Source: Natronomonas gomsonensis (GTDB lineage: Archaea > Halobacteriota > Halobacteria > Halobacteriales > Haloarculaceae). From it: a DNA stretch of 64,000 nucleotides. Position 1 is the stretch's first letter; each line of letters begins with the position of its first letter. Position numbers and translations under genes: made by a program. Shown piece after piece: positions 26,813 through 31,999 of the stretch. A model generated the notes under the pieces. The model was given only the letters and a program-made list of their open reading frames with translations. It had not been told where the DNA came from and searched no databases. The stretch spans positions 1,364,001 through 1,428,000 of the forward strand of contig NZ_JACAWU010000002.1 of NCBI RefSeq assembly GCF_013391635.1, written 5' to 3'.

Positions 26813-28162
26813 ATGCAGGACACAGCCAAATATCTCGTTCACGCGGACATCACCGCCGACGGAGTGGTCGAGCGCTCCGACGTCGTGGGGGCGGTCTTCG
26901 GGCAGACCGAAGGCTTGCTTGGCGACGAACTCGACCTCCGGGAGTTACAGGACTCCTCGAAAGTCGGCCGCATCGACGTCGAAATAGACTCCCAGAACGG
27001 CCAGTCGTTCGGCCGCATCACCATCGCGACCAGCCTCGACCAGGTCGAGACGGCCATCCTCGGGGCGGCGCTGGAGACTATCGACCGCGTCGGCCCGTGT
27101 CGCTCGACCATCGAGGTCAGAAAAATCGAGGACGTCCGCGCCGCCAAGCGCCGGGAAGTGGTCGAGCGCGCGAAGGCGCTGTTCGGCGAGGCGTTCGACG
27201 ATACGGTCCGCTCCAGCCGTGACCTCGTCGAGGAGGTCCGAGAGGCCGTCCGCGTCGAGGACATCACCGAATACGAGGGCCTCCCGGCCGGCCCCCGCGT
27301 CGCCGACTCCGACGCCATCGTCGTCGTCGAGGGACGGGCCGACGTGCTCACGCTGCTCCGGTACGGCATCAAGAACGCCATCGCCGTCGAGGGGACGAAC
27401 GTCCCCGACGCAGTCGCCGAATTGACCGAATCGAAGACCGTCACCGTCTTCCTCGACGGCGACCGCGGCGGCGAACTCATCAGGAAGGAACTGTCGCAGG
27501 TCGGCGACATCGACTACGTTGCCTTCGCGCCGGAGGGCAAGTGCGTAGAGGACCTCGCGCGCCACGAAGTGATGGCCGCGCTTCGGGAGAAAGTCCCCCA
27601 CGAACAAGCCATCGAGGCTGCCGAAGCGGAGAGTCCCCCCGAGACACCGGGCGTCGAGTCGTCATCCTCAATCGAGCCGTCCGGTCCGACGAACAACGGA
27701 ACCGCCGCGGTCGACGCGTCGGCCGAAGCCTCCGCCGAGGAGCCGACGGCCGACACCGATGCGACGGCCGACACCGATGCGACGGCCGACATCGAGACGA
27801 CCGAACCCGAAGAATCCGAAGCGACGGCGACTGAAAGCGACGACGACAGCGACCCCGGAACGCTTCGCGGGCACGTCCGTGAAATCATCGGCGACGAGAG
27901 CGGCCGCGCCAGACTGCTGGATGCCGACTTTCGAGCGGTCGAGGAGTGCCCCGCGGCGGACGCCTTCGACTGTCTGGTCGACGCCGAGACGGTGCCCACC
28001 GCCGTCGTCGTCGACGGTGAACTGGACCAGCGGCTTCTCGACGTGGCCGCCCAGCGGGGCGTCGACCAGGTGGTCGCCGCCTCGACCGGCGAGTTCGTCA
28101 AACAGCCGACGAGCGTCCGGGTCAGAACCGCCGACGCGTTACTCGCCGCGAACGAGGCGTAG
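26813..28162 (+). CDS. dnaG: Archaeal DnaG primase / exosome component
   Basis: A 449-residue archaeal DnaG. A Toprim domain lies centrally, with the catalytic Glu in [17 protein letters not shown] and DxD in [12 protein letters not shown]. The N-terminal archaeal DnaG domain ([20 protein letters not shown]) is intact. In archaea this protein is also a stable poly(A)-binding subunit of the RNA exosome. Between the Toprim and the conserved C-terminus (from about residue 350, [18 protein letters not shown]) lies a long acidic linker with an 18-base tandem repeat. The 3' end overlaps the convergent GNAT gene by 24 bp. Confidence 0.95.
27745..27790 (+). repeat. 18-bp tandem repeat in the dnaG acidic linker
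   Basis: The unit GACGGCCGACACCGATGC occurs twice exactly (27745-27762 and 27763-27780) and a third time partially. It encodes the repeated TADTDA peptide. The array lies in the low-complexity acidic linker, where length variation would be tolerated. Confidence 0.7.
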
Positions 28163-28546
28163 TGCGTCCGTGCCGTCGGCGTAAAACGACGGCAATCGCT
28201 CTCTGACCGCGAACCCGATGGCGCGATAGAAGCGTTCGGCCCCCTCGTTTTCCGCCGGCGTCGTGACGACCGTTCGGTCGGCGCCCGACACCTCCGCGAT
28301 CGCATCGACCAGCGCTCGACCATATCCGTGTCGACGGAAATCGGCGGCGACGACCAACTCCGAGAGCGTCGTCTCCTCGCCGGGAAGTGCGATAGCGTAG
28401 CCGACGACGCTCCCCTCGTGGACGGCGACCCGGCCGACGAACGGGCCGTCGATGGCGGCGTCGATTAACTGTGAGTCGGCGTAGGAGAGATTCGACTGCA
28501 ACGACCGGACAGCCGATTCGTCGGCCGGGACTATCGGCCGAATCAC
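28139..28546 (-). CDS. GNAT-family acetyltransferase
   Basis: A 135-residue acetyl-CoA-dependent N-acetyltransferase. The core shows [25 protein letters not shown] with the acetyl-CoA pyrophosphate loop (RRHGYG), followed by [20 protein letters not shown], the usual motif-B helix. The start is a GTG at 28546 that overlaps the TGA of the upstream DUF92 gene (GTGA), so the two are probably translated in tandem. The N-terminal extension upstream is antisense-like Arg-rich noise. The substrate is unknown. Confidence 0.88.
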
Positions 28547-29874
28547 AGGACCACGAGCCCCGCTGCCCCGGCGACCAGCCCCGCCGACAGCGTCGCCAGC
28601 AGATTGACGCTCTGGTTGTCGAGGCGACCGCCTTCGAGCGTCGCCCCGAGGATGCTGTCGACGGTCATGCCGACGAACCCGGCGGCGAGAATCGTCGCAG
28701 TACCGGGAACGCCGAGGCCGAAGAACAGCGCGCCGAGGCCGGCGATACAGCCGGAGCCGACGAGGCCGGCGACGACGCCCTGCCACGTGACGCCACCGTC
28801 GGTGCCCGCCTCAACGCGTTCGAACGTCGTGATAAGTCGCGGGTTGTCGAAGAGGCCGCCGAACTCACTGGAGAGGGTGTCGGCCAGCGCCGCGGCCACC
28901 GCGCCGGCGAAGGCAAACCGGAATACGGAGGCGTCCATGTTGACGTGGAGCGCGCCAGCGTAGGCGGCGACGGCGACCAACGCGACCGCCGAGTTCGCGA
29001 GGACGTTCCCGCTGTCGCGGGCGCCCTCGTTCTCCTGGGCGATGCCGCGTTCGAGTTTCTCGTCGTAGCGGTACTTCGAGGCGAGGCCGCCGACGCCGAA
29101 GAACGTCATGAGGAGGACGAACCAGCCGTAGCCCCCGAGGACGACGGCGAACAGCGCGAGCAACACCCCGGTGAGCATGCCGGTAATCGAGGCGGTTCCG
29201 AGTCCGTAGGCGAGGCCGCCGAGCAGGACGGTGAGTCCGAGCCCGACGGCGATTTGCGTCGACGACGTCGTCGCCTCCAGACCCAGTTCGAGCAGGAACC
29301 AGATGACGAGTCCCGTCGAGAGCAACACGAGCGAGTCGTCGCGAATGTGTAGCGCCGACCGGATGAGCGCCGCCAACAGCGCGCCGCTAGCCGCGAAGAA
29401 CGTCGCCAACGGGAGCGACGGCGTCGCGGCGCCGAGGGTACCGGCGAGGAAAATCGACCCGATGGCTCCGGCCATCCCCGAGACGACGAACGCCGAGACG
29501 AGGACGAACGGGTTCAGCAGACGGGTCGCGACGAGCATCTGTCCGAGGTTGCCAGTCGTGAGGACGAACACCGACGCGACGAACGCCGCCGTCGGCAACT
29601 CGAAACCGACGAGCAACACGGCGAGACCGGCGACCGCAAGGGCGAAGGAGGCGAGGCCGTACAGCCGGCCCTCCTTGCGGTCGCTGTCGCGGGCGAACAG
29701 TTCGAACAGCGGGCCTCGTGTCGATACCAGCGCCACGGCGGCGACGAACGCGAAGGGGGCGACGGTCGTGATGGCGGCGAGCCGACTGCTGGTGGCGCCG
29801 TCTAACACCGGAGCGATAAGCGACAGCGCTCCGACGAGGAAGTAGCCGCCGGCCCGACGTACGTCGCCAGTCAC
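28543..29874 (-). CDS. DUF92 family polytopic membrane protein
   Basis: A 443-residue protein with about 11-13 hydrophobic helices. The C-terminal part carries the DUF92 (TIGR00297/VTE6-like) signature: ALADTLSSEFGGLF near residue 340, then VEAGTDGGVTWQGVVAG and GFVGMTVDSILGATLEG. Plant VTE6 and FolK relatives are phytyl-phosphate or isoprenoid-phosphate kinases, so a role in isoprenoid phosphate metabolism is a reasonable inference. It also neighbours the cis-prenyltransferase genes. The N-terminal half is an additional membrane region. Confidence 0.85.
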   Translation of the reverse strand: MTGDVRRAGGYFLVGALSLIAPVLDGATSSRLAAITTVAPFAFVAAVALVSTRGPLFELFARDSDRKEGRLYGLASFALAVAGLAVLLVGFELPTAAFVASVFVLTTGNLGQMLVATRLLNPFVLVSAFVVSGMAGAIGSIFLAGTLGAATPSLPLATFFAASGALLAALIRSALHIRDDSLVLLSTGLVIWFLLELGLEATTSSTQIAVGLGLTVLLGGLAYGLGTASITGMLTGVLLALFAVVLGGYGWFVLLMTFFGVGGLASKYRYDEKLERGIAQENEGARDSGNVLANSAVALVAVAAYAGALHVNMDASVFRFAFAGAVAAALADTLSSEFGGLFDNPRLITTFERVEAGTDGGVTWQGVVAGLVGSGCIAGLGALFFGLGVPGTATILAAGFVGMTVDSILGATLEGGRLDNQSVNLLATLSAGLVAGAAGLVVL

Positions 29875-29956: not shown

Positions 29957-30565
29957 GTGGGACTGTACGACCGGTATCTCGCGACGCGAATCCGTCTCAG
30001 CGACGCGGCCGTTCCCGAGCGGGTCGCACTCGTCATCACCGAACACGACCTGCTCGAACGGGGCGCCTACGACACCCTCTCGGCGTTTCTGGAGTGGGCC
30101 TTCGAGACCGGCGTCGAGGAGGTGCTCATCTACGTGAGCGTCCTCGACAAGGCTGCCGTCCCGACGCTTCGGAACGCGCTCTCGGAGTTGGAGAGTCCGA
30201 GGACGGTCGCCGTCCGTGGCCCCGACGCCGACGACGCCGCCGACGCGCCCGTGCAAGTGTCCATCGGCCTCGGCGGCCGCGAGGAGTTCGCCGCCGCCGT
30301 CCGAAACATCGCCGAAGACGCCGCTGCCGGCGAGTTGGACCCCGAGGACATCGACGAGGCCGAAATCGAGCGCCATCTCGTCTTCCGGACGCCGCCGGAC
30401 CTCGTCATCAAGACCGGCGCCGAACGGCTCTCGGATTTCCTCATCTGGCAGTCCGTCTACTCCGAGTTGCACTTCACCGACGTGAACTGGCGTGACTTCC
30501 GGCGGCGGGACTTCCTGCGTGCTGTTCGGGAGTATCAGGAGCGGCAGAGACGATTTGGACGATGA
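29957..30565 (+). CDS. Degenerate cis-prenyltransferase homologue (NgBR-like subunit)
   Basis: A 202-residue member of the undecaprenyl-diphosphate-synthase family that lacks the catalytic DGNRR motif (the aligned segment is ALVITEHDLLERG) and the TFSTENF motif. The C-terminal half is well kept: DLVIKTGAERLSDFLIWQ, ELHFTDVNWRDF, and a terminal QRRFGR that forms an RxG motif. This is the pattern of the non-catalytic NgBR/Nus1 subunit. The start is the GTG at 29957 (VGLYDRYLATRI); an upstream GTG at 29915 adds unlikely residues. It faces the canonical uppS gene, tail to tail. Confidence 0.85.
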   Translation: MGLYDRYLATRIRLSDAAVPERVALVITEHDLLERGAYDTLSAFLEWAFETGVEEVLIYVSVLDKAAVPTLRNALSELESPRTVAVRGPDADDAADAPVQVSIGLGGREEFAAAVRNIAEDAAAGELDPEDIDEAEIERHLVFRTPPDLVIKTGAERLSDFLIWQSVYSELHFTDVNWRDFRRRDFLRAVREYQERQRRFGR

Positions 30566-30640
30566 AGGCAGCGAGTCTTCCAACCCTCGCGGCGCGAGCG
30601 AAGCGAGTGACGCGACGGGCCGAGCGGTGAGCGCGGCGGA
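30566..30640. repeat. GC-rich palindromic intergenic segment
   Basis: The gap between the two convergent cis-prenyltransferase genes contains short inverted repeats around GCGCGAGCGAAGCGAG (30588-30603) and GGCCGAGCGGTGAGC. The CGAGCGAAGCGAG core is the same as the loops in the repeat copy at 63.6 kb, so it may be a minimal relative of that family or a shared terminator-like palindrome. Confidence 0.4.
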
Positions 30641-30658
30641 CCGCCCGAAACACGTCGT

Positions 30659-31579
30659 TCACTCGACCGATGGGTCGGCCTCGCCGGCCTCCTCGATGTC
30701 GTCGAGTTCGCCATCGGGCAGCGAATCGCGGAACCGACCGATGACGCGGCGGGCCTCCTGGAGTTCTACGTCACCGACGGCGCGCAACAGCGCGGCCGCA
30801 CGCTGGGCGCGCGTCCGGCGCCACGACTCCTGTCTCGACTCGTAGGTCCGGACCGCACGCAGGAGGTCCACGCGGGAGAACTCCGGCCAGTATGGCGTAC
30901 AGAAGTAGACGGCCGCCTCGTTGCCGTTGGCGTGCCACGGCAGGAAGTTCGAGGTGCGCTCGTCGCCGCCGGTGCGGATGATGAGGTCGACCGCACGGGT
31001 GGGACGGGCGGTCATCCGGCGCTCGATTTCTTCGACGCAGACCGACTCGGGATCCAACTCGCCGGCGGCGGCTTCGCGAGCGATGTCGCGGGCCACCCCG
31101 AGCAGTTCCGCGCGGCCGCCGTAGGCCAAGGCGACGTTCAGGTACAGTTCGTCGTACTGTTCGGTCCGGGATTCGGCGTAGTCGACGGCCTCACGGACGC
31201 GCGGCGGGAGCCGCTCGACCTCGCCGATGGCGCGGATGCGGACCTCGCGGTCGTGGACCTCCTCGCGGTCGGCGAACGTTCGGAGTTTCTCGGTGATGAG
31301 GTCGAACAGCGCCTCGCGTTCCTCCGGCGGGCGCTCGAAGTTCTCCGTCGAGAACGTGTACAGCGTCAACTCCTCGACGCCGAGGTCCGCACACCACCGC
31401 AGCACGGACTCGGTTGTGTCGGCGCCCGCTCTGTGACCTTCGGTCTTCGCTTCGCCCTGCTTTTCGGCGTACCGACGGTTGCCGTCCTGAATGACCGCGA
31501 CGTGGGACGGGGCACCGGACACTTCTCGCTCCAAGACGCGCTCGTAGGCGGCTTCCAGGAGCCGACGGGGACCTCTCAT
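30659..31579 (-). CDS. uppS: Cis-polyprenyl diphosphate synthase (catalytic subunit)
   Basis: A 306-residue enzyme that extends allylic diphosphates with isopentenyl units in cis to make the dolichol-type glycan carrier. The catalytic HVAVIQDGNRRYAEKQG (Asp near residue 32), TLYTFSTENFERPPEE and DLIIRTGGDERTSNFLPW motifs are intact. The usual terminal RxG (RRFGG in bacterial UppS) is missing: the region reads YESRQESWRRTR, followed by about 40 extra residues. That gap is matched by the RxG in the neighbouring degenerate homologue. I chose the ATG at 31579 (MRGPRRLLEAAYERVL). Confidence 0.93.
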   Translation of the reverse strand: MRGPRRLLEAAYERVLEREVSGAPSHVAVIQDGNRRYAEKQGEAKTEGHRAGADTTESVLRWCADLGVEELTLYTFSTENFERPPEEREALFDLITEKLRTFADREEVHDREVRIRAIGEVERLPPRVREAVDYAESRTEQYDELYLNVALAYGGRAELLGVARDIAREAAAGELDPESVCVEEIERRMTARPTRAVDLIIRTGGDERTSNFLPWHANGNEAAVYFCTPYWPEFSRVDLLRAVRTYESRQESWRRTRAQRAAALLRAVGDVELQEARRVIGRFRDSLPDGELDDIEEAGEADPSVE

Positions 31580-31804: not shown

Positions 31805-31999
31805 ATGGCGACTGGTACGGTTGACTTCTTCAACGACACTGGCGGCTACGGATTCATCGAAACTGACGACGCGGACGAAGACGTGTTCTTCCACATGGAG
31901 GACGTCGGCGGTCCTGACCTCGAGGAGGGGCAGGAAGTCGAGTTCGACATCGAGGAGGCCGAGAAGGGCCCGCGCGCGAAGAATCTGACCCGTCTGTAA
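31805..31999 (+). CDS. cspA: Cold-shock domain protein
   Basis: A 64-residue OB-fold RNA/DNA-binding protein. RNP1-like TGGYGFIETDD and RNP2-like DVFFHMEDV are present, with the family start ATGTVDFFND. The usual Lys/Phe surface is adapted to high salt by many Asp and Glu residues. It acts as an RNA chaperone in the cytoplasm. It stands alone between uppS (divergent) and the next hypothetical gene. Confidence 0.95.
   Translation: MATGTVDFFNDTGGYGFIETDDADEDVFFHMEDVGGPDLEEGQEVEFDIEEAEKGPRAKNLTRL

Follow-up and report, generated by a model that had tools for sequence, protein, structure and literature searches.

Two neighbouring genes of the haloarchaeon Natronomonas gomsonensis very probably (at a probability of about 0.9) encode the two obligate subunits of a single heteromeric cis-prenyltransferase. 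Both lie in the 64,000-nucleotide stretch of DNA analysed here, hereafter the window, which belongs to a genome of 3.38 Mb in two contigs. CAT (positions 30659..31579, minus strand) is a catalytic cis-prenyltransferase subunit of 306 residues that lacks a C-terminal RxG motif, and PAR (29957..30565, plus strand, GTG start) is a non-catalytic partner of 202 residues and the putative donor of that motif. The genes converge, with 93 bp separating stop codon from stop codon (30566..30658). A first-pass annotation, made from the letters of the window alone, had proposed these two genes, their lengths and their tail-to-tail layout; all are confirmed, as are the three motifs that it read in CAT and the terminal QRRFGR that it read in PAR.

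Complementary motifs in two homologous proteins

CAT matches the cis-prenyltransferase family profile PF01255 over positions 1-216 of 219 (E 5e-68, 229 bits) and also exceeds the cut-off of the uppS equivalog TIGR00055. PAR matches the same profile only over positions 115-219, which form its C-terminal half (E 2e-29, 103 bits). The curated PF01255 cut-off of 27 bits is exceeded by both proteins, placing both in the family, and they are homologous to one another, scoring 228 when aligned, whereas shuffled sequences reach 61 at most. No other PF01255 members are found in the genome. The GTG start of PAR is backed by an N-terminus, [MV]G[LI]Y(D/E)xYLA, that is conserved among its relatives.

In the window, CAT contains DGNRR at the phosphate/Mg site (residues 32-36; 31472..31486, minus strand), TFSTENF (residues 75-81; 31337..31357, minus strand) and RTGGDERTSNF (residues 202-212; 30944..30976, minus strand). 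Where RxG would stand, the protein continues into a C-terminal extension (residues 247-306; 30662..30841, minus strand), modelled as helices by AlphaFold2. The RxG of PAR (R199-F200-G201; 30551..30559, plus strand) is followed by one residue and then the stop codon. This partition was traced in an alignment, in E. coli numbering, of 40 CATs and 40 PARs from six haloarchaea and most other families of the phylum Halobacteriota, together with archaeal single-subunit enzymes, bacterial enzymes, human DHDDS and human NUS1. Residues D26, G27, N28, R30, S71, E73, N74, R77, R194, R200 and S202 are kept in 40/40 CATs, as is each letter of DGNRR, and an in-register RxG is found at the aligned C-terminus of none (0/40). 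Among the PARs, R241 and G244 are invariant (40/40 each), R242 is present in 39/40 with K in the remaining one, and exactly one residue follows RxG in 40/40. The P-loop histidine H43 is absent from all 40, D26 is left in 7/40, the S-x-E-N site is gone and the P-loop region is mostly shorter by 11-13 residues. Neither chain unites the catalytic residues with RxG, CAT being without RxG and PAR without DGN and S-x-E-N. The proposed division of labour, with catalysis in CAT and RxG in PAR, holds phylum-wide. The accompanying claim that PAR has lost the catalytic motifs stands for DGN, the P-loop histidine and S-x-E-N, but is too strong for the third motif, because the window PAR reads KTGAERLSDF, a variant of RTGG-xxR-xS. 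The R200 equivalent of this motif is kept in 17/40 PARs, and a glutamate equivalent to E213 remains in 40/40.

Several variations on these sequences were observed. Three of the 40 CATs, none of them haloarchaeal (L071, L074 and L083), have an R-x-G shifted by about one residue from the register, possibly a remnant of an ancestral tail. In 33/40 CATs, two extra residues are inserted next to the E213 position (in the window, in the HANGNEAAVYF stretch after the RTGG motif); neither PAR nor any single-subunit enzyme in the comparison has them, and they could disfavour homodimers if they are close to the dimer interface. Very divergent and shorter PARs of 164-168 residues, with the RRFG end retained, are found in family f20 (genomes G300 and G309; L120 and L126).

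AlphaFold2 models of the single chains, built on alignments of the locus proteins, agree with this assignment to one family. PAR is predicted to adopt the cis-prenyltransferase fold (pLDDT 88.1, pTM 0.85), and along the full length of the protein its model superposes on UppS chains, at a Z of about 16, and on human NgBR, where residues 1-202 align to 80-293 of 6z1n_B at a Z of 15.3, as expected of the zeta-fold of these enzymes. The CAT model (pLDDT 86.6, pTM 0.78) matches DHDDS and UppS (Foldseek E 1e-22) and ends in a long helix (236-286), a turn and a short helix (292-298). These predicted C-terminal helices recall the helix-turn-helix by which DHDDS tetramerises (PMC7573591).

The extension raises another reading, in which CAT is an active homodimer, with the extension standing in for RxG, and PAR has an accessory or stabilising role outside the active site. 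Enzymes of the MM_0014/MA1831 type, a third family member in some relatives that forms a separate long branch in the tree, likewise lack RxG and end in TLGG, yet function as homodimers of relaxed specificity (PMC8131916), and human DHDDS alone is weakly active (PMC7573591). A family search of the window's genome found no gene of the MM_0014/MA1831 type. The extension, of 50-60 residues in haloarchaeal CATs, is missing from many other CATs of the phylum that have no RxG, so it is not a general substitute for that motif. Moreover, RxG with its one terminal residue is retained by every aligned PAR, in a protein that is elsewhere only about 35% identical per column. An active CAT homodimer is accordingly considered very improbable, and a heteromer completed by the PAR tail is preferred.

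Co-occurrence and gene order across the phylum

The PF01255 family is present in 292/292 genomes of the haloarchaeal class, with exactly two members in 281, three in eight, four in two and one in a single draft. PAR itself was recovered from all 145 haloarchaeal genomes tested, representing 58/58 genera. Across the phylum, 389 of 392 genomes contain the family, nearly all with at least two members and six drafts with one. Among 47 chosen genomes of the phylum, nearly every one encodes a full-length CAT and a PAR that matches over the C-terminal half. In one draft genome (G072, 120 contigs), PAR was seen and CAT was not. The three genomes of the phylum in which no PF01255 gene was found, PAR included, all belong to family f18 (G298, G307 and G316) and are drafts that are 86-91% complete. 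Frequent absence of the partner, which the first-pass annotation had named as grounds for rejecting the pairing, was looked for and not found, since PAR was recovered from every haloarchaeal genome tested and the f18 genomes lack the two together. In the ten haloarchaeal genomes with extra copies, the extras are mostly CATs that likewise end before the RxG columns, the exception being one weaker third match in G002. The haloarchaeon G195 has two CATs and two PARs (contigs C31 and C39), a pattern that a joint duplication of the pair would produce. As judged from gene content, the CAT/PAR split is fixed near-completely across the Halobacteriota.

In 46 of the 72 haloarchaeal genomes in which the positions of both genes could be read, CAT and PAR lie within 4 kb of one another, and in 46/46 of these, spanning 27 genera, they are tail to tail. 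The convergent order also occurs in several non-haloarchaeal families of the phylum. In the remaining 26 genomes, the two genes are far apart or on different contigs, which would suit a PAR that is an independent protein (e.g. a prenyl-phosphate binding protein or a regulator) and only incidentally a neighbour of CAT; the partly kept RTGG-xxR-xS motif of PAR could be read in the same way. However, this reading sits poorly with a co-occurrence that is essentially complete, with the joint disappearance of both genes from f18 and with the unfailing convergence of adjacent pairs. It is also opposed by the orthologous pair of Methanosarcina, a demonstrated heteromer according to the account in PMC8131916. 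An independent PAR is thus scarcely credible, and the interpretation of CAT and PAR as subunits of one enzyme is retained.

A third gene shares this neighbourhood. The gene upstream of PAR, in divergent orientation, encodes a DUF92 membrane protein (arCOG02245; 28543..29874, minus strand; PF01940, E 2e-53), and a DUF92 gene adjoins PAR in this way in 26/29 haloarchaeal loci. In the window, the two genes have a common divergent start region of 82 bp. Makarova and colleagues put arCOG02245 in the cytidylyltransferase/dolichol-kinase superfamily and reported that the DUF92 family has a conserved neighbourhood with uppS (PMC5898192); in a Methanosarcina homologue, DUF92 is described as preceded on its N-terminal side by a Sec59-like dolichol kinase domain (Makarova 2015). 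The N-terminal half of the window protein (about residues 1-213) is unnamed by Pfam. The DUF92 protein likely belongs to the same lipid pathway as CAT and PAR and is a candidate for the missing late step of archaeal dolichyl phosphate synthesis. An STT3/AglB homologue is encoded elsewhere in the genome, which therefore needs dolichyl phosphate. Also nearby are a small cold-shock domain protein of 64 residues (31805-31999, plus strand), beyond the start of CAT and divergent from it, and a Toprim-domain protein with a low-complexity acidic insert (26813-28162, plus strand), probably the archaeal DnaG primase.

Relation to the Methanosarcina, human and single-subunit enzymes

Genome G550, presumably that of Methanosarcina acetivorans, contains exactly one CAT, one PAR and one TLGG-ending member of the MM_0014 type, and by elimination of the last its CAT and PAR correspond to MM_0618 and MM_1083 of Methanosarcina mazei. 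According to Emi et al. (2019, BBRC, doi 10.1016/j.bbrc.2019.09.143), as related in PMC8131916, these M. mazei proteins associate into a heteromer whose products are C45-50; on that account, the Methanosarcina enzyme invoked in the first-pass annotation is real. In the careful tree of the family, CATs form one clade (100/97) and PARs another (100/99), and the G550 proteins fall inside the respective clades. The window pair is very probably a haloarchaeal version of the Methanosarcina heteromer, as had been suggested, with orthologous subunits and with RxG absent from CAT and present in PAR. It is not a new kind of enzyme, because such a heteromer has already been shown in Methanosarcina. The Methanosarcina sequences are only about 41-42% identical to those of the window, and the two genes are far apart in G550, whereas in the window they stand tail to tail beside the DUF92 gene. 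What is added here is the near-complete fixation of the pair in the phylum, its convergent order with a kinase-like neighbour and its contrast with the single-subunit enzymes of Asgard archaea.

The human DHDDS/NgBR complex (NgBR being the product of NUS1; PDB 6z1n, 6w2l) resembles the archaeal pair in that its catalytic subunit lacks RxG and has a C-terminal helical extension. NgBR, like PAR, is a degenerate chain of the same fold with a shortened P-loop region, and its sequence closes with RxG and a single further residue; unlike PAR, it has wholly lost RTGG-xxR-xS. NgBR also carries an N-terminal membrane domain. No such domain is found in PAR, the model of which opens directly with a domain helix (3-14) in a protein of 202 residues. 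The likeness to DHDDS/NgBR asserted in the first-pass annotation thus extends to the working principle, but orthology is unsupported by the tree and by profile scores.

Single-subunit homodimers, among them E. coli UppS and the enzymes of the sampled Asgard archaea, Thermoproteota and methanogens outside the phylum, share the family and fold of the pair, with the catalytic residues of CAT and the RxG end of PAR in one gene. Other archaeal phyla were reached through a 16S pattern, and the Asgard phylum (99 genomes) from a Thorarchaeota record. The archaea sampled outside the Halobacteriota mostly have one gene that covers profile positions 1-219, RxG included. In Asgard archaea, the family is present in 96/99 genomes, nearly always as one complete gene, and a search of the 99 genomes with the PAR profile for a PAR-like second subunit returned only these same genes and a few divergent paralogues. 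Among the archaea sampled, the split therefore appears to be confined to one phylum.

The careful tree groups human DHDDS with the Asgard single-subunit enzymes (98/85; highest identity 44%). DHDDS also scores better on the archaeal single-subunit profile than on that of CAT (269.7 versus 250.6 bits), and NUS1 fits the PAR and single-subunit profiles equally (45.5 versus 44.6 bits). NUS1 was left out of the careful tree because it is too divergent to place, having an end branch of 5.67 and having been drawn to DPANN rows in an earlier tree. Orthology of PAR and NgBR on the strength of a common ITE motif was not accepted, given that NUS1 matches the PAR and single-subunit profiles equally.

Two histories can be set against these observations. 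In the first, the ancestor of the Halobacteriota gained the two-subunit enzyme in a single event and eukaryotes gained theirs separately, each time by the parting of a complete homodimer into an RxG-less catalytic chain and a degenerate chain that supplies RxG in trans, eukaryotes having obtained the single-subunit enzyme from an Asgard-like ancestor. This history is somewhat the more probable, and these sequence comparisons favour, without proving, a separate origin for each of the two heteromers, because DHDDS groups with the Asgard single-subunit enzymes and no PAR-like subunit was found in the Asgard genomes searched. In the second, the archaeal pair and DHDDS/NgBR are orthologous, one ancestral heteromer having been inherited by, or transferred to, eukaryotes. 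A clade of CAT with DHDDS is not rejected by the AU test (p 0.47). In both PAR and NUS1, ITE replaces IMDG and the P-loop region is shortened, and the PAR profile aligns NUS1 over its full length. Common descent is nonetheless rather unlikely in view of the position of DHDDS in the best tree, the profile scores of both human chains and the outcome in Asgard archaea, where 96 of 99 genomes contain the family but the search turned up no PAR-like second subunit.

Working model and implications

The C-terminal tail reaches across the dimer interface both in homodimeric enzymes and in the human complex, with the RxG arginine next to the metal and the acceptor phosphate held by backbone amides close to the RxG glycine (PMC8131916, PMC7573591); in the human structure, the tail is seen to act in trans (PMC7573591). 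In the model proposed for the window pair, the DGN, S-x-E-N and RTGG-xxR-xS motifs of CAT would bind the allylic primer and the isopentenyl diphosphate, and the growing chain would be accommodated in CAT as well. PAR would have the same fold with a degenerate, shortened active site, and its tail (R199-F200-G201-R202) would cross the dimer interface to close the active site of CAT. PAR is taken as the source of RxG because CAT lacks the tail, PAR has it and the genome holds no third family member. The simplest arrangement would be a CAT-PAR heterodimer, or a dimer of such heterodimers, in which each heterodimer has a single competent active site. The enzyme would make the polyprenyl diphosphate from which archaeal dolichyl phosphate, the lipid carrier for protein glycosylation, derives. 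Such a pair probably arose when an ancestor of the phylum duplicated a complete homodimeric enzyme and each copy then lost the other's half. A simple sister relationship of CAT and PAR, as a single duplication within the phylum would leave, is neither demonstrated by the tree nor rejected by the AU test (p 0.30).

These comparisons point to the genes behind the dolichol backbone of haloarchaea, and predict that the enzyme cannot do without PAR, which could easily pass for a redundant copy. A soluble archaeal pair would also be a simple model for the disease positions of DHDDS and NgBR. More broadly, the archaeal and eukaryotic heteromers may represent a repeated evolutionary experiment; if they are independent, the features parted alike in both, namely RxG and the shortened P-loop, would reveal which parts of a homodimeric prenyltransferase can be shared out between two chains.
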